From assembly GCF_945957465.1 (NCBI RefSeq), contig NZ_CAMFLC010000039.1, forward strand, positions 1 to 33,410: 33,410 nt of DNA. Reading direction: 5' to 3'. This DNA comes from an uncultured Leifsonia sp. (GTDB lineage: Bacteria > Actinomycetota > Actinomycetes > Actinomycetales > Microbacteriaceae). A model generated the notes under the pieces. That model saw nothing but the letters and a program-made list of their open reading frames with translations, searched no databases and was not told where the DNA came from. Both the position numbers and the translations under genes were made by a program. Shown here piece by piece: positions 8,374 through 33,358 of the stretch. Position 1 is the stretch's first letter. Every line of letters starts with the position of its first letter.

Positions 8374-10152
8374 TCAGGTGTCAGAGCGGCGCAGCAGGGC
8401 CTCTATCTGCGCACGATCGGCGGTGAGCTGGGTGGTGTCGGGGCGCTTTGGCCACGGGTGCAGGTCGGTGACGATCGGGGGCGCGGAGCGCAGCAGCACG
8501 ATCCCGGTGCCGAACGGTAGCCGGCGGATGCGGTCGGGCGGGAAGATCGGCACCCGCCGGACGGAGCGCTGGTTGGAGCGGGTGCCGTGGTCACCCAGCG
8601 TCACGGAGTCGGTGTACTCGTCGCGTTCCCCGACCAGGGCGCTGAGGTCTTGCAGATCGCGACTGTTGGAAGCGCCGCCGAGGATGACCTTGACGATCGA
8701 CGCGTCCCAGATCGCGCCGGCCTGGTGCTCGTTCCACTTGTCCCGCGCCTGCGCGAGGGACTGGAGCACCGGCATCGTCGTGATGCCCGACCCGCCGCCT
8801 TCGGCCATCAGCGTCGGCAGCGACGGCAGGGGCGAGAGGTTGGCGATCTCATCCAGCGCCAGCAGCATCGGCGGATCGAGCCGCGCACCGGGTGAGCGCG
8901 CGGCGAGACGGCGGGCAGTCTCGATGAGGTCTTCCACCAGCGCCGCGACCAGTGCGGCGCTGGCTCCCGCACCGGACCCGGTGGCCAGGAGAAACAGGGT
9001 GCCGCGGTTCTGGATGAAGTGCTCGGGGTCGAATCCTTCACCGGGGCCGGGTGAGACGGCGTCGAGCACTCGGGGGTCGGCGAGCGATCCGAGGGCGAGG
9101 GACACGCCTTGCCAGATGGAGTCGCGGGTGCGGGGGTCGGAGTCGATCATCGCTTCCAGCGACTCGGCCCATCCGGTCGCCGCGCGGGTCGAGCCGGTCA
9201 GGATCGCCACCGCGTCGGCGGCTGCGGTCGGGTCGAGGGTCCAGCGGAACAGCTCGGCCGGTGGGCGGTGGTCGATCGCGGCGGCGTGCAGGAGCGCTTG
9301 CAGTGCGGCGCGGGTCTTGCCCTCCCAGAACCCGCCGCCGTCGACGCCGCCGGATGAGAGGCCGGTTCCGGCGGCGAGCCCGGTGGCGCGGATCATCGCG
9401 GTCTGCGGGGACTCACAGCCCCGGATCGGTGACCACCGCATCCCCGCGGGCAAGCCTTCGGCGAGGTGTTGCGGGTCGAAGATCGCGACCGGCCCGACCC
9501 GGCTGCGGGCGCGCAGGGTCGCGGTCAGGTTGTCCGGCCGGGTCGAGGTCACCACGACGGCACCGGGGGCGTCGAGGATCGCGGGGATCACCAGGTGCAG
9601 GCCCTTCCCGGAGCGGGGCGGGCCGATGACCATGATCGAGTCCTCCACCGACGCCCACACCCCGGTGCCCTTAGAGGCGCCGAGCCGGTAGCCGACATCT
9701 TGCGGGCGTGGATTATCCAGCCCGGGGCGGAGGTTCCCGGCGCGACGCAGCAGCGCCTTCTCGGACGCGGCGGCAGCGACCTCATGCCTCGTGGCAATGC
9801 CCGCCATCCGGCGCGGGTCTTGCTCGACTCGGTGCGTGTGACGGCGCAGCCGCGACCAGACCCACACGCCGCCGGTGATGAGCACGGCGAGCAGGAGGCT
9901 CGTGACGAGCCAGTAGACGACCGGGCTCATGCCGGGCGCGTCCAGGGCGCCAGCGGGATCGCCCGGATCGAACAGCACACCGATCCCGGACGCAGGACCA
10001 CCGGCGGGCTGGCTCGTGCCGGTGACGAATGCCGCGACGGACCCGGCGCCGCGGAGCACCAAGGCGATGCCGAACAGGCCGACCAGTCCGATCATGGCCG
10101 CGTTGGTCAGCTCATCACCGAACGAGCCGGTCTGCCGACCCTGACTGTTCAT
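8374..10152 (-). CDS. VirD4/TraG-type coupling protein
   Basis: 592 aa inner-membrane ATPase that brings the relaxase-DNA complex to the secretion channel. There are two membrane segments (~18-45 and 77-100). The cytosolic ATPase domain has Walker A GPPRSGKG (177-184) and Walker B LLALDEIAN (~430-438), followed by the PLPSLPTLMAEGGGSGI stretch that is typical of VirD4/TraG. An extracytoplasmic Gly/Pro/Asp-rich loop lies between the two membrane segments. The ATG overlaps the upstream stop as ATGA. It belongs to the SCO-type actinobacterial T4SS set seen across this operon. Confidence 0.92.
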   Translation of the reverse strand: MNSQGRQTGSFGDELTNAAMIGLVGLFGIALVLRGAGSVAAFVTGTSQPAGGPASGIGVLFDPGDPAGALDAPGMSPVVYWLVTSLLLAVLITGGVWVWSRLRRHTHRVEQDPRRMAGIATRHEVAAAASEKALLRRAGNLRPGLDNPRPQDVGYRLGASKGTGVWASVEDSIMVIGPPRSGKGLHLVIPAILDAPGAVVVTSTRPDNLTATLRARSRVGPVAIFDPQHLAEGLPAGMRWSPIRGCESPQTAMIRATGLAAGTGLSSGGVDGGGFWEGKTRAALQALLHAAAIDHRPPAELFRWTLDPTAAADAVAILTGSTRAATGWAESLEAMIDSDPRTRDSIWQGVSLALGSLADPRVLDAVSPGPGEGFDPEHFIQNRGTLFLLATGSGAGASAALVAALVEDLIETARRLAARSPGARLDPPMLLALDEIANLSPLPSLPTLMAEGGGSGITTMPVLQSLAQARDKWNEHQAGAIWDASIVKVILGGASNSRDLQDLSALVGERDEYTDSVTLGDHGTRSNQRSVRRVPIFPPDRIRRLPFGTGIVLLRSAPPIVTDLHPWPKRPDTTQLTADRAQIEALLRRSDT

Positions 10153-17274: not shown

Positions 17275-17541
17275 TCAGAGCTGGCGGCCGAGGACGATCA
17301 GCCAGTTCACCCACGCCACCCCAGCACCGGCGAGCACGGCGGCACCGGCCCCGACGAGCACCCCGACCCGGCCCTTGGAGGCCAGCGAGTGGTTGCCGTG
17401 CGACGCGCCCAGCGCCCAGCAGATCGCCGAGACGACGATCATCAGCACCGCGACGACGAGCACGATCGTGAGCAGCGCACCGATCACCTGTTCCAGGTCA
17501 CCGATCCCGGCCAGGCCGTCGAAGTCGGGGAACACGTCCAT
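17275..17541 (-). CDS. DUF6112-like small membrane protein (second copy)
   Basis: 88 aa from the ATG at 17541, which overlaps the upstream stop as TGATG; a GTG 3 bases earlier is also in frame. Two membrane segments (~20-44 and ~60-82) and a loop SHGNHSLASKGRVGVL that aligns with the loop of the neighbouring copy. The two proteins are about one-third to one-half identical by eye in the helices and loop. Two copies might form a mixed pilus or channel component; that is inference. Confidence 0.75.
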   Translation of the reverse strand: MDVFPDFDGLAGIGDLEQVIGALLTIVLVVAVLMIVVSAICWALGASHGNHSLASKGRVGVLVGAGAAVLAGAGVAWVNWLIVLGRQL

Positions 17542-19196
17542 CACGCACCGGCCTTGACGGTGACGTGGAGGTGGTCGAAGTGTCCGCCGGTCACGTCACC
17601 GGGGTCGTGGCTTCCGCCGCCGTCGTAGTCGCGCCAGCCTTCCCCATCGCGGGCGACCGACCAGATGCGGCCCTGCCAGATCAGGTACTCCACGCCCAGG
17701 GTCTCGGCGTGGTCTTTCATCCAGTTCGTCACCCGCCATCCGTCCTCGAGTTGCGCGGGTGTGGGATAGGTCCCGATGCGGTTGCCGAAGGTGATGTCGC
17801 AGGCGCGTCCCAGCGGGTGCTCGGAGGTGGTGCCGGGCCGGGGCGAGTAGCAGGCCCAGCCGGTGTCGGGGAACCCTGCGCGGGCTTGGGCCACGAGGTG
17901 CGCCATCCGGGCGGTGATCTGCCCGTCGCTGGTGGGGTCGTCCACTAGCCGGTCGGGGTCGCCGTCGACCGGGGCGGGTTCGCCCGCGGTGCCGCCGGGG
18001 GTGTCGCAGCCGGCGGGGGTGCCGACGGCGGCTTCGGGCAGGTCGGCGGCGTTGTGCGCGTTGAGCCACGCGGCGGCGTCGACGGCCTCGCCGTGGGTGC
18101 CGCCGGGGCGGACCTCGAAGTGCAGATGCGGTCCGGTGGAGTTGCCGGAGCTGCCGACATCGCCGATGTGCTGCCCGGCGACCACCCGGTCACCGGCTGA
18201 GGCGTGGAGGCCGGATTCCCACATGTGGGCGTAGGCGGTCGCCACCGTCTGGCCGTCGATCTGATGCTCGATGACGATCAGCCCGCCGTAGCCGCCGGAG
18301 AACTCCGCGACGGTCACGGTGCCGTCCGCGGCGGCGAGGATCGGGGTGCCGTCGGGGGCGGCGAGGTCGGTGCCGGTGTGGAACGACGACTCTCCGGTGA
18401 TCGGGTGGACTCGTGGCCCGAACTCGCTGGTGAGCACCCAGGTTCCCTCCGGCAGCGGGAACACCACCCGCGCGGACTGTGCCACCGGACCCGCCGCGAC
18501 CGCGGACCTCGCCGGACCGGCCGAGCCGGATGCGTCGGTTCCGTCGCTGGCGGCGCCGGTGAGGGCATCAAGGATCGCGTCGGCGACTGGCTGGTAGTTG
18601 CGGTAGCGGTCCGGGTAGGCGCTGACTTCGACGGCTTGGGCGGCTTCGCCGGGGTCCATCTGCTGCCAGCCCGGGATGTCCAGCAGCCCCCGCGGGCTCG
18701 GGTAGTTCGGGCCGTCCGGTCCGCCGAAGAACGCCCGCGCCTGGTAGTTCGGGTCCATCAGCTCCGCGACGGTGCCCCACCCGGATTGCGGTCGCATCTG
18801 GAACAGGCCGAGCGAGTCGTGATCCGAGCCGTTGCCGTCGTTGGGGTAGTTCCCGCTGTCGGGGTAGGCGCCGGTGTTCGCCAACTGCCGCAGCGTGCTC
18901 TCGGCCAGCGCGGCCATCAGCGCGATCGTGATGCCGGGCCGGCCGACGCCCTCGATCCCGCCGCCGATCGTGATGATGGTGGCCGCGTGCGTGAGCTGCT
19001 GCCGGTTCAGGGTGAACGTCTCACCGTTCGCGGTCGTGACCGTCAGCGACTCCGGGACCGTCCCGACGGTCACCGATCCGCCGGGAGTCGCGCAGTTCGC
19101 GGCGGCGGGATTCATCAGCACGCCGATGCCGACCAGCCCCAGCATGGGGCCGAGCAGCAGCAGCGCGAGGATGGCGGCGGTGAGCTTCTTCAACAC
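17541..19196 (-). CDS. Three-domain peptidoglycan hydrolase of the T4SS
   Basis: 551 aa secreted or anchored enzyme opening the cell wall for the conjugation channel (VirB1-like role). An N-terminal signal or anchor helix (~4-28) is followed by a lytic-transglycosylase-like domain (~70-215; catalytic E99 in LAEST, then SLGLFQMRPQSGWG). Next is an M23 endopeptidase domain (~245-375; zinc ligands H273 and D277 in HTGTD, H357-x-H359 in GPHLHFEV). The C-terminal domain (~425-550) looks like an M15/VanY-type peptidase, SEHPLGRACD (H460, D467) and HFDHLHV (H542, H544). Three different cutting activities in one chain are unusual. GTG start; coupled to the DUF6112 gene by TGATG. Confidence 0.88.
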   Translation of the reverse strand: MLKKLTAAILALLLLGPMLGLVGIGVLMNPAAANCATPGGSVTVGTVPESLTVTTANGETFTLNRQQLTHAATIITIGGGIEGVGRPGITIALMAALAESTLRQLANTGAYPDSGNYPNDGNGSDHDSLGLFQMRPQSGWGTVAELMDPNYQARAFFGGPDGPNYPSPRGLLDIPGWQQMDPGEAAQAVEVSAYPDRYRNYQPVADAILDALTGAASDGTDASGSAGPARSAVAAGPVAQSARVVFPLPEGTWVLTSEFGPRVHPITGESSFHTGTDLAAPDGTPILAAADGTVTVAEFSGGYGGLIVIEHQIDGQTVATAYAHMWESGLHASAGDRVVAGQHIGDVGSSGNSTGPHLHFEVRPGGTHGEAVDAAAWLNAHNAADLPEAAVGTPAGCDTPGGTAGEPAPVDGDPDRLVDDPTSDGQITARMAHLVAQARAGFPDTGWACYSPRPGTTSEHPLGRACDITFGNRIGTYPTPAQLEDGWRVTNWMKDHAETLGVEYLIWQGRIWSVARDGEGWRDYDGGGSHDPGDVTGGHFDHLHVTVKAGA

Positions 19197-26296: not shown

Positions 26297-27565
26297 TCAG
26301 CGTTCGTCCAGTGAGCGTTCCATCTCGCTTTCGCGCATCCGTCCCGCCAGCAGAGCGATCAGCGCAAGGGCGGGTGGCGCGATGCCGGCGATGATGAAGA
26401 TCACGGGGATAGGCACGAGCAGTGAGAGCGGGCCTGCGATGGCGATCGAGACCGGCATGAAGGCGATCGAGACGAAGAAGTCGAGGCTCGCGACTCGGCC
26501 GATCATGTCGAGCGGCACCAGACGTTGCAGCAGGGTTCCCCAGATGACGACACCGGCTCCGGTCGCCGCGCCGACGATGAACAGTGCTGAGAGCATCAGA
26601 ATCAGGTTGTCGGCGACGCCGATGACCGCAAGGGGGAGGGTTCCGCCGCCCCAGCAGGCGATCATGAATGTGAGGTAGCGGCGCGGCAGTTTCAGAGATG
26701 ACACAACGAGTGAGCCGATCGCCCCGCCGATGCCGAATGCGGCAAGGAGGAAACCGAACGTCGATTCGGCGTCCTCGAACCTGTCGCGGGTGATGAACGG
26801 CAGCAGCACTTCGATCGGTCCCTGGATGATGAGGGCGAGAGAGGAGCCGAAGATCAGAGTCCAGAGCAACCAGCGAGTGCGAGCCACATAGTTCACGCCT
26901 GCTCGAAGGTCGCCCCACACGCTCGTGCGCTGCTCCGGAGAAGTGACCGTGATCAGTTCGTCGCGCCGACTGAGGAACAGAGTGAGGATGAACGCGATCG
27001 CGTACGACGCTGCGACGATCACGGCCCCGATGGCGGGAAAGAACATGCCGACGAAGATTCCGCCGAGGGCGGGACCCAGACCCTGCCCCATTGAGGGTCG
27101 GAGAGCGCCTTCGAGCCCGTTCGCGGCGAGGAGCTGCTCAGGCGGAAGCACCTGGGGCAGATACGCGCTGTAGGCGGGGTAGAAGAACGCGCTTCCTGCG
27201 CCCATCGCGAAGGAGGCGACGCCGACGTGCCACAGTTCGATCGTCCCGGTGAGGGACAGCACTGCCACCACGGTCATCACGGCCGCGGTGCATCCCTGCA
27301 CGGTGATGATGATGCGGCGTTTGGAGAACCGATCGGCGACAACGCCACCCAGGATCGAGAAGGCGAACAAGCCCAAGCTCATCCCTGTCGCGACCGCTGA
27401 GAGCGCGAGCGGGCTGTCATCGAGCGCGAGGACTTGGAAGACCATCACGATGGTCCACATCCCGGTGCCGAAGACCTCGATGCCGACTGCGGCGAACAGG
27501 AGCCGATAGTCCCGCGAAGCCAGTGGCCGCAGGGCACGTATCCGGTTGAGGTTCTTCTCGCTCAT
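26297..27565 (-). CDS. MFS efflux protein of the Tap/Mef type
   Basis: 422 aa from the ATG at 27565, which overlaps the ABC-F stop as ATGA; a longer start at 27613 is unlikely. About 12 membrane segments. The MFS_3 pattern is visible: RDYRLLFAAVGIEVFGTGMWTI, GGVVADRFSKRRIII (the A-motif loop G-x-x-x-D-R-x-x-x-R-R), and SAFFYPAYSAYLPQVLPPEQLLAANGL. This branch includes macrolide (Mef) and mycobacterial Tap exporters. Coupled to a resistance-type ABC-F gene, it suggests drug efflux, probably macrolide-like, but the substrate is not proven. Confidence 0.85.
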   Translation of the reverse strand: MSEKNLNRIRALRPLASRDYRLLFAAVGIEVFGTGMWTIVMVFQVLALDDSPLALSAVATGMSLGLFAFSILGGVVADRFSKRRIIITVQGCTAAVMTVVAVLSLTGTIELWHVGVASFAMGAGSAFFYPAYSAYLPQVLPPEQLLAANGLEGALRPSMGQGLGPALGGIFVGMFFPAIGAVIVAASYAIAFILTLFLSRRDELITVTSPEQRTSVWGDLRAGVNYVARTRWLLWTLIFGSSLALIIQGPIEVLLPFITRDRFEDAESTFGFLLAAFGIGGAIGSLVVSSLKLPRRYLTFMIACWGGGTLPLAVIGVADNLILMLSALFIVGAATGAGVVIWGTLLQRLVPLDMIGRVASLDFFVSIAFMPVSIAIAGPLSLLVPIPVIFIIAGIAPPALALIALLAGRMRESEMERSLDER

Positions 27566-29217
27566 ACCAGCGCCTCGCCTTCGATCATCGAAGTCAGTTC
27601 GAGGCTCGGCCATTCGTAAACGTCACGGAGCAGCTGCCGGTCGTGCGTTGACAGGACGACCGCCGCTGCAGTCGCTCCGAGCGCGTCGGTGAGTTCGTCA
27701 ACGAGCGCGATTGAAAGGTGGTTGGTGGGTTCGTCCAGGAGGAGCACATGCGGGCGCATCGCGAGCACGAGTGCCAGATCGAGCCGGCGCTGCTGCCCCA
27801 TCGAGAGCTCGCCCACTCGTTTGCCCGCCTCGCGCGGGCGAAGGAGACCAAGCTGAGAGAGGCCGATCGCATCCGATTCCCGCAAGGTGCCTTCGGACAC
27901 GAGCGCGCCGACGTGCGTGGCGTACACCTCGCTCGCTCTCCGATCAGGCGGCAGGGTCGTCTCCTGATGGAGAAAGCCGAGGCGCGTGCTCCGAGGCATC
28001 CGAACCGCTCCGGTGTCCGGCGATAGCTCACCACCGACCACGCCCAGCAGTGTGGACTTGCCGGCACCGTTCGGGCCGGTCACAACGAGACGGCCGCGGT
28101 GGGAGAGTGAGAACGACACTGGCTGGCTCAACCGCCCGGCGACGCTGACGTGATCGACGCTGAGGAGAACCGCGCCAGTTCGTGTGGGGAGTTCGGGGAA
28201 CCGGAAGAGCTGAGGCGGTTCCGGCACGGTGACGGCGTGGGCTTCGAGTGCTTCCTGGCGTCGGTGAACGTTCTGCACAAGCCCGCCGGCCCGGGTGGCG
28301 CGCCCATGCTTGTTGGTGCCCTTCTCTGGTCTCCACCCCGAGACGAGTCGGTTCTGCGCTGCGCTGAGACTGTCCTGTAGCCGAGCATGCTCGGCCTGCT
28401 GGCGGTCATAGTCCTGTTCCCAGCGTTCCCGCTCGGCCAGACGTCCCTCCCGGTAGCCGGCATAGCCGTTCCCGTACACGCGCGGCCGATCGTCCGGCGT
28501 CGGGTCCAGGTCGACGATGGTCTCCGCGATGTCGGACAGCAGCGCGCGATCGTGGCTGACGACGACAACACCCCCGCTCCGCGCTCGGAGCTGCGCGGTC
28601 AGGAACTCGAGCCCGCTTCGGTCGAGGTGGTTGGTGGGCTCATCAAGCAGGAGGAAGTCGTGATCGGCGCCCAGGAGGCACGCCAGCCGTACCCGATAAC
28701 GCTGTCCCACCGAGAGGTCTGTGAGAAGCCTGGTCGAGTCCGTCTCCGCGTCGAGTGCTTCGAGCGCGATCTGCACGCGCCGTTCGGCATCCCACGCATC
28801 GAGCGCTTCGGCATGTTCCAACGCGGCCGCGTACTGCTCCTCCGTCCGGTCCTTGTTGTCCGCGAGAGCGAGAGCGGCCGCGTCGAGCGCCGCCAACGCG
28901 GCCAGTGGTTCGGCGATCGCCTCTGCGACCGCCTGCCCAACAGTTCGACTGTCAGCGGCGGTCATCTCTTGCTCGGCCACAGCGATCGTGCCGATGCGCT
29001 GGACTGTTCCGCTGTCCGGGACCAGGACGCCAGCGAGAACCTGCAGGAGGGTCGATTTCCCTCGCCCGTTCTCTCCCACGATCGCGACACGCGATGAGGA
29101 AGTGAGGGTGAGGTCTACATGATGGAGAACGGGTGTGGCTCCGCGCATCAAAGACACGTCGGAAGTGATGAGTTGCGCGCGATGGCGCGCCGGATGACGG
29201 TTCGTCGGGGTAAGCAT
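27562..29217 (-). CDS. Antibiotic-resistance-type ABC-F protein
   Basis: 551 aa from the ATG at 29217, with GAAGGA five bases upstream; an in-frame extension to 29331 is not likely because it covers the leader. Two ATP-binding cassettes: Walker A GENGRGKS (48-55), signature LSVGQ, Walker B LLLDEPTNHLD; then Walker A GPNGAGKST, signature LSMGQ, Walker B LLLDEPTNHLS. Linker between them has the basic stretch GWRPEKGTNKHGRATRAGGL. No membrane segments. ABC-F proteins of this sort displace macrolide-, lincosamide-, streptogramin- or pleuromutilin-type drugs from the ribosome. The linker resembles those of TlrC/LmrC-type actinomycete proteins. An upstream six-codon leader peptide suggests drug-induced regulation. 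Confidence 0.9.
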   Translation of the reverse strand: MLTPTNRHPARHRAQLITSDVSLMRGATPVLHHVDLTLTSSSRVAIVGENGRGKSTLLQVLAGVLVPDSGTVQRIGTIAVAEQEMTAADSRTVGQAVAEAIAEPLAALAALDAAALALADNKDRTEEQYAAALEHAEALDAWDAERRVQIALEALDAETDSTRLLTDLSVGQRYRVRLACLLGADHDFLLLDEPTNHLDRSGLEFLTAQLRARSGGVVVVSHDRALLSDIAETIVDLDPTPDDRPRVYGNGYAGYREGRLAERERWEQDYDRQQAEHARLQDSLSAAQNRLVSGWRPEKGTNKHGRATRAGGLVQNVHRRQEALEAHAVTVPEPPQLFRFPELPTRTGAVLLSVDHVSVAGRLSQPVSFSLSHRGRLVVTGPNGAGKSTLLGVVGGELSPDTGAVRMPRSTRLGFLHQETTLPPDRRASEVYATHVGALVSEGTLRESDAIGLSQLGLLRPREAGKRVGELSMGQQRRLDLALVLAMRPHVLLLDEPTNHLSIALVDELTDALGATAAAVVLSTHDRQLLRDVYEWPSLELTSMIEGEALV

Positions 29218-29273
29218 TGAAGTCCTTCGAGACGACGCACCACCAGCCACAGACAGGCAGATAGGTACGCAAA

Positions 29274-29359
29274 TGACGGCGACCCAGGAAGGGTCAGAAA
29301 CGAGCGGCCGCCGCAGTCTCGGATTACTCAACGAGCGCGGTGGGCCTACTCAGCCGTCA
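29274..29359 (-). promoter_or_regulatory. Candidate attenuator in the ABC-F leader
   Basis: TGACGGC at the leader-peptide stop (29353-29359, coding strand) is the perfect complement of GCCGTCA (29274-29280). Between them is a small hairpin GACCC-TTCCT-GGGTC (29281-29295). The CCTTC in that hairpin can also pair with the ABC-F ribosome site GAAGG (29224-29228). These mutually exclusive pairings are what a translation or transcription attenuator would need. Rest of 29218-29419 has no other gene. Confidence 0.4.
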
Positions 29360-29377
29360 CAGGAAGTACAAATGCAT
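29357..29377 (-). CDS. Six-codon leader peptide MHLYFL
   Basis: ATG CAT TTG TAC TTC CTG TGA lies 139 bases upstream of the ABC-F start, on the same strand. Upstream AGGGTGG may act as ribosome site or TAGGGT as a -10 box, in which case translation would be leaderless. Size and hydrophobic-aromatic make-up recall the macrolide-sensing MsrDL leader (MYLIFM, from memory) of mef/msrD operons, which also precedes an ABC-F gene. The stop codon lies in the 7-bp element of the proposed attenuator. Confidence 0.55.
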   Translation of the reverse strand: MHLYFL

Positions 29378-29419
29378 ACGACCACCCTACCGCACGAAGC
29401 CGACGTGCCCTCCGCCTAG

Positions 29420-30538
29420 CTACGCGATCGCTAGAAGGGCGCGGAGCGCGTGCGCTGCTTGGGCGGGTACGACTCCGTTGCCGAGTGCGGTGAGCTGTTC
29501 TGGCGGGGTGAGTCCGAGGTTGGGATCGGTCACCCATCCGTCCGGTAGGCCCATCAGCCATTCCACGAAGCGCGGCGCGGGCCGGCACTGCCCCTCGTCC
29601 GTTACGAGGGCTGGTGAGGGGGCGCCTCGTCCGGTGAGGTGTTCCCATCGTCGGATTGCCAGGGCGTAACGTCCCCAGCGTCGAAGAGCTGCCCGATCAG
29701 CGGCCACAGAAGCTCCGGATCCCGATGCGGCCGCGAACCGTCCGGCCCGTTCAGCGCCAGGTCGATGACCTGATGGGACAGGGCGATCGTGCCGCGCCGC
29801 GCGCGTACTCGTTCCAGGCTCTCCCCGCCGCGGGCGGCGTCGGAGGCCAGCGGCGTGCGGAACAGCGCGGCGGGCGAGGATGAAGATGCGAAAGCGGGTG
29901 TGGGGTGCGCCGATGTCGGAAGCGGGTAGGCCGAGCCAGCGCGCGTCGTACCCGAGGTCGGCCAGATCGCCGAGTACGGCGCCAAGAGCCCGTAGAGGTC
30001 GAGCTGGCTGGTCTCCCAGATGCCACGGGTCGGATTCCACACCGCGAACGGCCGCCCCCTCGATTGCGGTTGCGGGCTCGGGGGTTGCAGAGGCGGGGTT
30101 GCGTCCATCAGGGTCCTCTCCTTCCGGTGTCGGGCGCGTCGCGGTAGCCGAAAGCAGCCCGCGCACGTTCTCGGCGACGACCCACTCCGGTTGCAGCACG
30201 TCGATCGCCTCGGCCATGCGCGCCCACAACCCCGAGCGGGTGCCAGGGTGCAGGCCGGCCATGCGTCCCACGGTGGACACGTCCTGGCAGGGGAACCCAC
30301 CGCAGATCACATCGACGGGCTCGACCGCGTTCCAGTCGATCGTCGTGATGTCGCCCAGGTTCGGCACGCCCGGCCAGTGATAGGCGAACACCCGCGCCGG
30401 CGCCGGGCTCAACTCTGAGAACCACACCGTCTCGCCGTCGAACACTTCCTCGACGGCAAGGTCGAGTCCGCCGTAGCCAGAGAACAGTGACCCGATCCGT
30501 AGACGACGGCCCTGGGTCTCGTCGTTCGGCAGGCGCAT
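29420..30538 (-). CDS. C5-cytosine DNA methyltransferase
   Basis: 372 aa from the ATG at 30538, chosen since GGAG lies upstream and motif I begins 12 residues later. Motifs: I, LRIGSLFSGYGGLDLAV (13-29); IV, GGFPCQDVS with catalytic Cys84; VI, ENVRG (E123); VIII, APHTRFRIFILA; X, ALGNGVVPAQAAHAL. The region between VIII and the C-terminal target-side block (RRWGRYALAIRRWEHLTG, FVEWLMGLPDGWVTDP) is Arg/Ala-rich and has poor codon bias for this organism; another frame there has better bias (see the gene at 29602-30108). No restriction enzyme is next to it, so it is probably a solitary protective methylase. Confidence 0.85.
   Translation of the reverse strand: MRLPNDETQGRRLRIGSLFSGYGGLDLAVEEVFDGETVWFSELSPAPARVFAYHWPGVPNLGDITTIDWNAVEPVDVICGGFPCQDVSTVGRMAGLHPGTRSGLWARMAEAIDVLQPEWVVAENVRGLLSATATRPTPEGEDPDGRNPASATPEPATAIEGAAVRGVESDPWHLGDQPARPLRALGAVLGDLADLGYDARWLGLPASDIGAPHTRFRIFILARRAVPHAAGLRRRPRRGEPGTSTRAARHDRPVPSGHRPGAERAGRFAAASGSGASVAADRAALRRWGRYALAIRRWEHLTGRGAPSPALVTDEGQCRPAPRFVEWLMGLPDGWVTDPNLGLTPPEQLTALGNGVVPAQAAHALRALLAIA
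29602..30108 (-). CDS. Overlapping gene inside the methyltransferase gene, alternate frame
   Basis: 168 aa, fully inside the methyltransferase gene in another frame. The ATG at 30108 has a strong AAGGAG-type site eight bases upstream. The product has WNPTRGIWETSQLDLYGLL, PYSAIWPTSGTTRAGSAYPLPTS and LFRTPLASDAARGG, blocks that I recall from actinophage and ICE proteins near methylases. Codon bias supports it: by hand count about 54 of 62 codons end in G/C between about 29693 and 29878, against 32 of 62 in the methyltransferase frame. No enzyme motif is recognised. The alternative is that this segment belongs to the methyltransferase and two frameshifts have separated it. Confidence 0.55.
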   Translation of the reverse strand: MDATPPLQPPSPQPQSRGRPFAVWNPTRGIWETSQLDLYGLLAPYSAIWPTSGTTRAGSAYPLPTSAHPTPAFASSSSPAALFRTPLASDAARGGESLERVRARRGTIALSHQVIDLALNGPDGSRPHRDPELLWPLIGQLFDAGDVTPWQSDDGNTSPDEAPPHQPS

Positions 30539-30699
30539 GAGGACTCCGGCAGATCGGTGATCCCCGGCCGAGTCCGATCGTGAACTCGATGCCGGGCTGG
30601 TTACCCGCCAAGTGCTCGCCGCACCTCCCGTCTCCAACTCGAACGACCTTGCGACGGCCTGCCGCCGCCCTTGGCTCGCCCCGTCTCTGAGCTGCCACA

Positions 30700-30746
30700 C
30701 GTCTTTCAGACGAGGCGCGAGGGTCCCGAGTCGCATCTGATGCGAC
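30700..30746 (+). other. Candidate oriT hairpins upstream of the relaxase
   Basis: Two perfect inverted repeats: CGTCT-TTC-AGACG (30700-30712) and GTCGCAT-CTG-ATGCGAC (30730-30746). They lie in the 261-base gap between the divergent methyltransferase and relaxase genes, 54-100 bases before the relaxase start, where MobF origins of transfer are often found. No nic sequence could be assigned. The rest of 30539-30799 contains no other gene. Confidence 0.4.
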
Positions 30747-30799
30747 CGGGCTTGCGGGATCACCTGCTCTCCGAGCGGTTAGCGGAAGGGGCAGCCGAG

Positions 30800-33358
30800 G
30801 TGACGGTTTCGATGCGTGTGATGAGCGCGGGCGATGGGTACAAGTACCTACTGAAGTCCATCGCCGCGGGCGATGGCGACCGCTCGCTGTCCACGCCGCT
30901 GACTCGGTATTACGCAGAGGCAGGAACGCCGCCCGGCTTCTGGATGGGCTCGGGACTTGGCCGGCTCGGGCACGGCGAGCTGGTCGAGGGAGCCCAGGTC
31001 GCAGAAGCCCAGCTCGCGCTGTTGATCGGGATGGGCCATGACCCGATCACGGGCGATCCGCTGGGCCGCGCCTACCAGCAGTTCGCGTCGGTCGCGGAGC
31101 GGATCACGCAGCGCGTCGACGCCCTCGACCCCGAACTGGGGCCGGCCGCTCGAGCTCAACAAGTAGCCGCGATCGAAGCGGAGGAGGCTGAGCGCGGAAC
31201 CCGCCGCGCCGTGGCGGGCTATGACTTCACCGTCTCCGTGCCGAAATCCGTCTCCACGATCTGGGCGGTTGCAGACGCGGGCACCCAAGCCTTGATCGCA
31301 GACGCCCACCATGCGGCGGTTGCAGAGCTGGTTGCGTTCCTCGAACGAGAGGTTGCGACAACCCGAGTCGGTGCAACCGGCCCGGACGGCGCGGTTGCGC
31401 ACGTCGATGTCGCCGGCGTCGTGGCGGCGGCGTTCGATCACTACGACAGCCGCGCGGGCGACCCGCAGTTGCACACGCATGTCGTCATCAGCAACAAGGT
31501 TCTGACCGTGCAGGACGGGCGCTGGCGAACCCTCGCTGGCCGGCCGATGCACTCGGTCGTCGTAGCCGTCTCCGAGCTCTACAACGCCGCTCTGGCGGAC
31601 CAGCTCACCCGCGTCCTCGGCGTGGAGTGGGAGGCGCGAGAGCGGGGCCGGGACCGGAACCCGGCATGGGAAATCGAGGGCGTGCCCGACGAGCTGGTGA
31701 CTGAGTTCTCCACCCGGTCGCGACACATCAAGGCCGAGAAGGATCGCCTGATCGCTGAGTACGTCGCCAGGCACGGGCGCCAGCCTTCGGCGCGGACGGT
31801 GCTGAAACTCCGGGCACAGGCGACGCTCGCTACCCGGCCGGAGAAGCAGGTTCGGTCGCTGGCCGACCTCACCCGCGAGTGGCGGCAGCGCGCCAGCCGA
31901 GTGCTCGGGAAGGACGCGAACGGCTGGGCTCGCACCCTCACCGTGACGAACGCGCGGGCGCCGCGGGTGTTGCGTGCCGACGATGTGCCGCTGGACGTGG
32001 TGCGTGAGGTCGGGCAGACCGTGATGGAGACGGTCGGTGAGAAGCGTTCGACCTGGACCCGCTGGAACCTGCATGCCGAGGCATCCCGGCAGTTGATGGG
32101 GTGGCGGTTCGTCACCATGCAGGATCGGGAGGCGATCACTGGCCTGGTGGTCGACGCGGCCGAGCACGCTTCGCTGCGGTTGACGCCGCCGGAGCTGGCG
32201 TCGAGTCCGTTGCAGTTCCGCCGCGTGGACGGCACCTCCCGGTTCCGGCCGCACTCCTCGACGCTGTTCTCATCCGAAGTCCTGCTGGCCGCCGAAGACC
32301 GGCTCCTGGCCCGAGCGTCCACCACCACGGGGCCGGTCGTGGCGTTGGAGACGGTCGAGAGGATCGCCCGAAAGCCCGACGCACGCGGGCGGGTGCTCGG
32401 CGAGGATCAGGCCGCGGCCCTGGCAGCTATCGCAGTCTCCGGTCGGATCGTGGACGTGCTGGTCGGCCCGGCCGGTGCCGGGAAGACCACGGCCATGAAC
32501 GGGCTCCGCAGGGCGTGGGAGAAGGAACACGGCAACGGGTCGGTGATCGGACTCGCGCCCTCTGCTGTGGCGGCGCAGGTCCTCGCCGATGACCTCGGCA
32601 TCGCGACGGAGAACACCGCGAAGTGGTGGCAGAACCATCTCATGCACGGGACCACGTTCGCGGCTGGGCAGCTCATCATCATCGACGAGGCGAGTCTGGC
32701 CGGCACCATGTCGCTGGATCGGCTCACCCACGAGGCTGAGCAGGCGGGCGCGAAAGTCCTCCTGGTCGGTGACTGGGGCCAGCTCCAATCACCGGGCGCC
32801 GGCGGGAGCTTCGCGATGCTCGTGCACGCCCGTGAGGATGCCCCCGAGCTGACCGATCTGCACCGCTTCACCCACGAGTGGGAGAAGACCACCTCGCTCC
32901 AGCTCCGCCACGGCCGCGCCGAGGCGATCGACACCCTGATCGAGCACGGCCGGATCACCGGCGGCGACGAGGAAGCGATGATCGACGCCGCCTATCGCGC
33001 GTGGCGGGCTGATGTTGCCGCTGGGCGTGCGTCGATCCTCGTGACCGAGACGCACGCGACCGTCACCGAGCTGAACGCCAGGGCGCGGGCGGATCGGATC
33101 ATCGACGGCGCCGTGAACCCGACCCGCGAACTCGCCCTGCACGACGGTACCGCGGTCTCGGACGGTGATCTGGTCATCACCCGCGAGAACGACCGGCGGC
33201 TCCGCAACGGCCGAACGTGGGTCCGCAACGGCTCCAGATGGATCGTCACCGGGGTCCGTGAGGACGGGTCGGTCAGCATCCGCCCTGCCGGGCGCAGGTT
33301 CGGCGGCGGGATCGTGCTGCCGGCCGACTATGTGGCCGAGCACCTGGACCTCGGTTAG
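30800..33358 (+). CDS. MobF relaxase-helicase (TraA/TrwC type), truncated
   Basis: 852 aa as present. The GTG at 30800 (GGAAGGGG upstream; protein MTVSMRVMSAGDGYKYL) is the usual family start; an extension to 30671 is unlikely. Relaxase domain: active-site tyrosines Y37/Y38 (TRYYAEAG) and metal triad H214 with H225-T-H227 (DHYDSRAGDPQLHTH). RecD-like helicase: Walker A GPAGAGKT (556-563), Walker B IIIDEAS (D629/E630). Relatives of this type continue past PADYVAEHLDLG with YAxTxHRAQG and several hundred more residues. Here a TAG follows the Gly at once, and no continuation is seen in any frame. The relaxase half is intact; the last helicase motifs are lost. It runs opposite to the transfer operon. 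Confidence 0.9.
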   Translation: MTVSMRVMSAGDGYKYLLKSIAAGDGDRSLSTPLTRYYAEAGTPPGFWMGSGLGRLGHGELVEGAQVAEAQLALLIGMGHDPITGDPLGRAYQQFASVAERITQRVDALDPELGPAARAQQVAAIEAEEAERGTRRAVAGYDFTVSVPKSVSTIWAVADAGTQALIADAHHAAVAELVAFLEREVATTRVGATGPDGAVAHVDVAGVVAAAFDHYDSRAGDPQLHTHVVISNKVLTVQDGRWRTLAGRPMHSVVVAVSELYNAALADQLTRVLGVEWEARERGRDRNPAWEIEGVPDELVTEFSTRSRHIKAEKDRLIAEYVARHGRQPSARTVLKLRAQATLATRPEKQVRSLADLTREWRQRASRVLGKDANGWARTLTVTNARAPRVLRADDVPLDVVREVGQTVMETVGEKRSTWTRWNLHAEASRQLMGWRFVTMQDREAITGLVVDAAEHASLRLTPPELASSPLQFRRVDGTSRFRPHSSTLFSSEVLLAAEDRLLARASTTTGPVVALETVERIARKPDARGRVLGEDQAAALAAIAVSGRIVDVLVGPAGAGKTTAMNGLRRAWEKEHGNGSVIGLAPSAVAAQVLADDLGIATENTAKWWQNHLMHGTTFAAGQLIIIDEASLAGTMSLDRLTHEAEQAGAKVLLVGDWGQLQSPGAGGSFAMLVHAREDAPELTDLHRFTHEWEKTTSLQLRHGRAEAIDTLIEHGRITGGDEEAMIDAAYRAWRADVAAGRASILVTETHATVTELNARARADRIIDGAVNPTRELALHDGTAVSDGDLVITRENDRRLRNGRTWVRNGSRWIVTGVREDGSVSIRPAGRRFGGGIVLPADYVAEHLDLG

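Follow-up and report, generated by a model that had tools for sequence, protein, structure and literature searches.

A conserved +1 reading frame nested in a C5 cytosine methyltransferase gene of an uncultured Leifsonia sp. as a candidate recognition subunit

The small chain of the C5 cytosine methyltransferase M.EcoHK31I is read from an overlapping reading frame. According to a paper on such enzymes, M.AquI and M.EcoHK31I are two-polypeptide C5 methyltransferases, and complementation between fragments is documented for several further enzymes (PMC3404938). In the same text, the small chain of M.AquI carries motifs IX–X and that of M.EcoHK31I motif IX alone, with motifs I–VIII and X as well as the predicted target-recognition domain on the large chain (PMC3404938). 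Overlapping methylase halves are also described in the Cluster O mycobacteriophages Corndog (gp7/gp6) and Firecracker (gp6/gp5), where the strongest ribosome-binding site of the second half lies inside the first (PMC4351075). This 2015 Corndog paper left two products, a frameshift, a ribosome hop and splicing undecided; RT-PCR showed no splicing, and mass spectrometry on the Corndog relatives detected neither product (PMC4351075). Furthermore, another report describes the ShiLan domain, a hidden HNH endonuclease located out of frame inside phage methylase genes (PMC11855218). Among open-access papers, the literature search returned the Corndog and ShiLan reports and nothing describing the arrangement presented here, in which one frame is nested within the other, as a class. 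The nested type described below is a further variant of a known arrangement, with evidence favoring two products.

Here, such a nested locus is described from the window, that is, the whole analyzed stretch of 33,410 nt from contig NZ_CAMFLC010000039.1 of an uncultured Leifsonia sp. The methyltransferase frame is termed alpha and the frame nested within it beta. The locus probably specifies a two-polypeptide C5 cytosine methyltransferase encoded by a single DNA segment, in which beta aids recognition in trans. In the proposed mechanism, the alpha frame would yield a catalytic chain with motifs I–VIII, IX, and X, in which the part from VIII to IX would largely serve as an unconstrained linker. 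A second ribosome entry site within alpha would allow beta to start in the +1 frame. Beta would comprise a small N-terminal domain (WNP...WET...TSGxTRxG) overprinting motifs VII–VIII, followed by a target-recognition cassette. Both chains would assemble, and beta would provide DNA recognition in trans. We infer the translation of beta, the alpha–beta complex and the recognition role from sequence.

Organization and genomic setting of the locus

The alpha frame encodes a C5 cytosine methyltransferase, with a match to PF00145 (E = 5.5e-31) and motifs I–VIII, IX, and X. It also matches phrog_363 (E = 3.6e-70), its score against the NCBIfam dcm model (99 bits) lies slightly below the cut-off of 100.65, and its relatives in the PDB, M.HhaI and M.HaeIII, correspond to approximately residues 11–132. 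Beside motif IV, motif VIII, and FVEWLMGLP (Table 1), the translation also contains LGNGV. The open frame extends back beyond the likely ATG to a GTG at 30763 (open span 29420–30763).

Table 1. Features of the methyltransferase locus and of the surrounding element in the window
Feature	Position	Strand	Basis or remark
TraG/TraD-type coupling protein	8374–10152		conjugative marker together with the relaxase
Alpha, C5 cytosine methyltransferase	29420..30538	minus	372 aa from likely ATG at 30538
Alpha motif IV, GGFPCQ	starts 30301	minus	translation
Alpha motif VIII, GAPHTRFRIF	starts 29911	minus	translation
Alpha motif IX, FVEWLMGLP	near 29563	minus	translation
Beta, nested ORF	29602–30108	minus	168 aa (168 codons), own ATG; +1 frame of alpha, uninterrupted, wholly within alpha
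AAGGAG, predicted ribosome-binding site of beta	30118–30123	minus	9 nt upstream of beta ATG
Beta N-terminal block, WNPxRGxWET	29987..30041	minus	selected in beta frame
Dual-use core, alpha motifs VII–VIII and beta PYSxxWPTSGxTRxGxAYPLP on the same bases	29896..29987	minus	codon-position and selection counts
Beta target-recognition-like cassette, LFRTPLASDAARGG...TIALSHQVIDLAL	29761..29896	minus	alpha is an unconstrained linker over most of the cassette
TrwC-type relaxase, divergent neighbor of alpha	30671..33358	plus	PF08751, E = 4.9e-93

A preliminary description of this DNA had reported a second frame of 168 residues inside the methyltransferase gene, opening with its own ATG behind AAGGAG, and this frame is indeed present (Table 1). 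It had also called for separate database searches with the two frames, which led from alpha to the families named above and from beta to phrog_1008, annotated as “DNA methyltransferase” (E = 3.1e-11; beta residues 16–97 aligned with only profile positions 68–149 of 329). At the limits used, beta gave no match in Pfam, NCBIfam or PADLOC, and a sequence comparison with the PDB returned nothing credible (best E = 0.8). The AlphaFold2 model of beta is poor, with a mean pLDDT of 57.6 and values below 50 for residues 68–96; only residues 21–60 or so average at least 70, forming a small beta-sheet part of moderate confidence in which residues 21–40 reach 85–86. A hidden HNH insertion of the ShiLan type was considered for beta and rejected, given the lack of a Pfam match and the bases shared with motif VIII. 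The ShiLan domain is an inserted homing endonuclease in the third frame, whereas beta lies over the core motifs on the same bases and is a member of phrog_1008.

Third-position G/C had been counted by hand in the preliminary description as 54/62 in beta against 32/62 in the methyltransferase frame (29693–29878) and as about 59/75 against 48/72 (29890–30108), and these counts were nearly right. The computed values for beta, the methyltransferase frame and the third frame are 53/61, 36/62, and 49/61 in the first stretch and 60/73, 49/72, and 44/72 in the second. Since high values extend to the unused third frame within the first stretch, GC3 alone is weak evidence and was not used as proof.

The coupling protein together with the relaxase indicates a conjugative element; the relaxase also lies within the retrieved stretch of 33 of the 44 related loci introduced below. 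A 5.2-kb segment (27351–32545) recurs at 99.96–99.98% identity in Brachybacterium equifaecis (L132) and, with one gap, in Janibacter hoylei (L133), which represent two genera of different families. This near-identity probably reflects a recently shared conjugative element, and the methyltransferase may protect the element from host restriction. The gene adjoining the methyltransferase encodes a duplicated-ATPase ABC protein (27562–29331), ABC-F-like by our reading and matched by Pfam ABC_tran in two stretches, with an MFS transporter nearby (26297–27613); the window also encodes a protein with an M23 peptidase domain (17541–19196).

Conservation and selection in the two frames

The two frames were compared in a set of 44 non-redundant loci, the window included, drawn from 46 loci in which motifs VIII and IX lie 330–360 nt apart in one open alpha frame (median DNA identity 73%, pairwise range 42–97%). 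The beta ATG is present in 43 of them. A ribosome-binding core precedes a beta ATG in 37 of the 44 loci, as opposed to 0.5% of background windows, and in 31 when a looser pattern is applied to the first beta ATG only. Across the VII–VIII core, the +1 frame contains no stop in either of two sets (0/44 and 0/54 loci, with 17 and 33% expected to be interrupted), and the +2 frame is stopped in 20/44 and 37/54 loci (25 and 52% expected). Control methyltransferases without beta have +1 stops in 11 of 16 cases, close to the expectation of ~71%. Alpha is likewise kept open across the cassette more often than expected: among loci with an open beta cassette it is open in 55 of 61 and stopped in six, and 67% of beta-synonymous cassette shuffles (42 loci) create an alpha stop. 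The wider 61-locus tally was used here because the 44-locus set is itself selected for an open alpha frame. A stop in beta with alpha open occurs in two of 63 loci (L020 and L180), and alpha is interrupted upstream of motif VIII in one locus of the 44-locus set (L022).

A codon bias within the overlap was also observed. The Tyr codon of the LGYDA stretch in alpha is TAT in 36 of 43 cases in the phage set (vs. 15/104 of the other Tyr codons in the same genes) and in 20 of 32 cases in the 44-locus set (vs. 5/25 elsewhere). In this stretch TAT, the rarer Tyr codon, supplies a Met in beta; the window uses TAC at this position.

The mean pairwise difference at alpha codon positions 1/2/3 changes in pattern along the 44 loci. 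It amounts to 0.06/0.05/0.44 at motif IV, 0.28/0.25/0.20 and then 0.20/0.14/0.23 upstream of motif VII, 0.14/0.10/0.38 and 0.18/0.13/0.35 across VII–VIII, and 0.30/0.14/0.21 directly after VIII. Across the cassette it is 0.57/0.19/0.11 and 0.46/0.18/0.11, past the cassette 0.54/0.41/0.37 and 0.33/0.28/0.27, and further downstream 0.23/0.20/0.45. The variable position therefore shifts from the alpha wobble to the beta wobble and back to the alpha wobble.

When each change was counted according to its consequences in the two frames (716 pairs; bootstrap intervals over codons, with shared ancestry uncorrected), beta dNN/dNS was 0.43 (0.22–0.74) in the WNP block, 0.39 (0.11–0.97) at offsets +15..+60 past motif VIII and 0.25 (0.17–0.36) in the cassette at offsets +60..+150, compared with 1.14 and 0.88 for the same frame in flanking alpha-only controls. 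The VII–VIII core is not significant alone, either in the 44 loci (0.60, 0.24–1.07) or in 65 phage and other loci (0.80, 0.50–1.27). The first ~22 beta residues show no selection (1.13, 0.68–1.70), and the +2 frame is always at least 0.87. The corresponding ratio for alpha, dNN/dSN, is 0.21 (0.07–0.38) over VII–VIII, 0.30 downstream and 2.60 in the cassette, where alpha is a free, unconstrained linker. A profile test based on synonymous shuffling was discarded as evidence: it was strong in the +1 frame (mean z 3.8 and 4.0) but similar in the +2 frame, which is unused (3.6 and 3.4), and of this analysis just the stop counts and the Tyr codon bias were retained.

Selection thus acts on both frames, mostly in different segments of the overlap, because beta alone is not significant in VII–VIII and alpha is unconstrained in the cassette. 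With both frames selected and the second start conserved, alpha and beta form a same-strand overlapping gene pair. Synonymous-site conservation across homologous loci had been recommended as a check, and the counts above reveal protein-level selection on beta outside the VII–VIII core. The selection, the conserved ATG and ribosome-binding core and the phrog_1008 match confirm that the nested frame is more than chance, and the earlier suggestion of a true overlapping gene is supported by the variation at codon positions, by an internal start kept across loci and by the broad distribution described below.

Arrangement types among relatives

A second copy of the locus in the same genome (L002, 72% DNA identity) shares the nested frame, which is open there over 164 codons. 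Within the family, searches with beta were positive in 23 of 299 genomes, its own counted, and elsewhere in 88 phage records and two plasmids; an alignment search across the phylum was positive in 11 of 396 genomes. When loci were retrieved by the beta sequence alone (n = 160, comprising the best 80 of 151 viral-contig loci and the best 80 of 166 genome-contig loci), motif VIII lay in the −1 frame of beta in 154, five had a variant or broken motif VIII and one had no recognized beta pattern. Of these 160 loci, 108 belong to a table of 142 distinct loci and all have VIII in the −1 frame; the other 52, checked separately, consist of 30 duplicates and 16 further loci with VIII in the −1 frame, the five with a variant or broken motif and the one without the pattern. 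Apart from the latter, no beta free of a methyltransferase frame was found among the 160.

The 142 loci were chosen from 211 (L001–L211) by motif patterns and removal of duplicates. Their next C-terminal motif (IX or X) lies in the alpha frame in 112, in the beta frame in 16 and in the third frame in six, and was not found in eight. In 15 of the 142, the beta frame is open through to IX/X, with alpha often ending soon after VIII. The preliminary description had regarded continuity of the second frame with motif VIII and the C-terminal block as a sign of frameshifts. Continuity with VIII was seen in none of the inspected loci except L027/L037, one degraded locus in which an indel makes the N-terminal portion of that frame continuous with motif VIII; continuity with IX/X was found in the 15 loci mentioned. 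L027/L037, together with L023 and L026, in which IX is out of phase, are apparently decaying methyltransferase genes. In L003 (Tweety, 1–661), gene 69, another annotated methyltransferase, contains the same nested beta text over motif VIII and ends ~280 nt later.

Deposited records annotate both overlapping frames in Firecracker (gp6/gp5) and in Paenibacillus phage Jacopo. The nested protein of Jacopo matches phrog_1008 (E = 6e-72) and carries motif IX, with X remaining in alpha, an arrangement seen in seven of 22 viral loci. Four proteins of split or nested relatives match the same family (E = 1.1e-58 to 3.7e-79), and nested or overlapping frames related to it occur in phages of several hosts, some of them with motifs IX or X. 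Because a direct profile comparison between beta and the Jacopo nested protein is weak (probability 14.6%), the link between the two depends on phrog_1008. Within a Jacopo-type set from a divergent branch (the 40 loci out of 61 in which the region around motif IV is open, reduced to 32 non-redundant ones), a single locus of the 32 has a +1-frame stop, where 95% were expected to be interrupted, and dNN/dNS is modest, at 0.52–0.91 from motif IV to shortly past VIII and 1.09 beyond. In the divergent branch (L253–L312, e.g., L266 at ~2001–2700), mostly of middle GC content, the nested frame starts before motif IV and spans IV–VIII.

The window represents a third type, with IX and X in alpha and a beta frame made up of the N-terminal block and the cassette only. 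Among the known enzymes, M.EcoHK31I resembles Jacopo and the other viral loci of its kind in having IX in the nested frame or small chain and X in alpha or the large chain; in contrast, the window has IX in alpha and only the recognition-like cassette in beta. Because its predicted recognition domain is placed on the large chain in that text, M.EcoHK31I does not fit a simple rule of recognition in beta. M.AquI is comparable to the 16 loci with the next C-terminal motif in the second frame, but the window alpha retains IX–X and beta is nested entirely within it. Firecracker gp5 resembles beta in using the other frame and in matching phrog_1008; however, the second frame of Corndog and Firecracker holds IX–X and the first ends after VIII. 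The window differs from two-subunit C5 enzymes whose conserved motifs are split between chains, as alpha has I–VIII, IX, and X and beta only the presumed recognition segment.

Cassettes of an xTP pattern, which we defined ourselves, were located between VIII and IX in 125 loci, with 240 in the beta frame, 120 in the alpha frame and 14 in the third frame. Where IX lies in the alpha frame, they occur in beta only in 65 of 105 loci. In L038, the beta frame ends ~157 nt past motif VIII and five xTP cassettes lie in the alpha frame, so cassettes can occur in either frame. Another enzyme carries a cassette similar to that of the window beta, but in its alpha frame, between motifs VIII and IX (46% over 46 aa; E = 3e-4, valid for a single comparison only). 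By its position and this likeness, the beta cassette looks like a target-recognition region.

Alternative explanations and implications

Beta could be a separate small protein with another role, such as a regulator or inhibitor of alpha or an unrelated function, rather than a recognition subunit. Alpha has all catalytic motifs and beta lacks IX/X in the window, which might in principle allow alpha to act by itself, and in M.EcoHK31I it is the large chain that holds the predicted recognition domain (PMC3404938). Such a role nevertheless appears unlikely, since IX/X are carried by the beta frame in split relatives and the beta cassette resembles one that another enzyme carries between VIII and IX in its methyltransferase frame.

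Programmed frameshifting, in which ribosomes past motif VIII would switch from the alpha to the beta frame, yielding a single enzyme with the cassette, and would shift back for IX/X in nested loci, seems rather unlikely as well. It is named together with a ribosome hop as an option in the Corndog paper (PMC4351075), and it would suit the loci with the next C-terminal motif in the beta frame, nearly all of which are open to that motif. Nonetheless, in the window and, apart from the degraded L027/L037, in the inspected loci, beta occupies the +1 frame relative to alpha, which a −1 slip cannot reach, and nested loci would need two shifts. In addition, the overlap between the frames in the inspected loci ranges from ~200 nt (209 nt in the Firecracker annotation) to far more than 300 nt (Jacopo type), beta opens with an ATG of its own behind a ribosome-binding core, both conserved, and a fusion would lose the WNP block, which is under selection in beta and lies ahead of motif VIII. 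Due to the +1 phase and the separate start, frameshifting is considered less likely than two products.

The preliminary description had offered a target-recognition segment displaced by two frameshifts as a further reading. In its appearance this segment does fit a target-recognition part, but many lineages share the same arrangement of frames, so a mutational displacement does not account for it. A remnant produced by two indels in a decaying gene is thus very improbable: some relatives are broken, as described for L023, L026, and L027/L037, but the 44 loci keep the same phase at 42–97% pairwise DNA identity, with purifying selection on beta. That conserved alpha residues and GC-rich codons dictate the conservation of beta is hardly credible, as this explanation, although in line with the near-equal shuffling similarity of the +2 frame and the non-significant VII–VIII core, is contradicted for the cassette and the WNP block, though not for the VII–VIII core, by an alpha wobble that is the most conserved position (0.11) in a cassette where alpha itself is unconstrained and by +1 stops that are frequent in controls without beta yet absent from the 44 and 54 loci.

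Returning to the two-polypeptide reading, we tentatively suggest, as a possibility just short of an even case, that these loci form a widespread class of C5 methyltransferases whose recognition subunit is an overprinted +1 gene lying over the enzyme’s own catalytic motifs. With cassettes in either frame, specificity might be exchanged in one frame while catalysis is kept in the other, and the beta domain, whose SGMxRxG corresponds to LGYDAxW in the alpha frame, might be an ancient overprint rather than a recent oddity.

To our knowledge, few long same-strand overlaps in bacteria are strongly supported for both of their products; here, both overlapping products would belong to one enzyme. The question raised by the Corndog paper, namely two products, a frameshift or a hop, becomes testable. 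The findings suggest that some pairs of phage genes annotated as “DNA methylase” may be one two-chain enzyme, and gene callers may retain just one of the two frames. If beta gives specificity in trans, it would serve C5 enzymes as a compact equivalent of the Type I S subunit and would be useful for engineered methylation.
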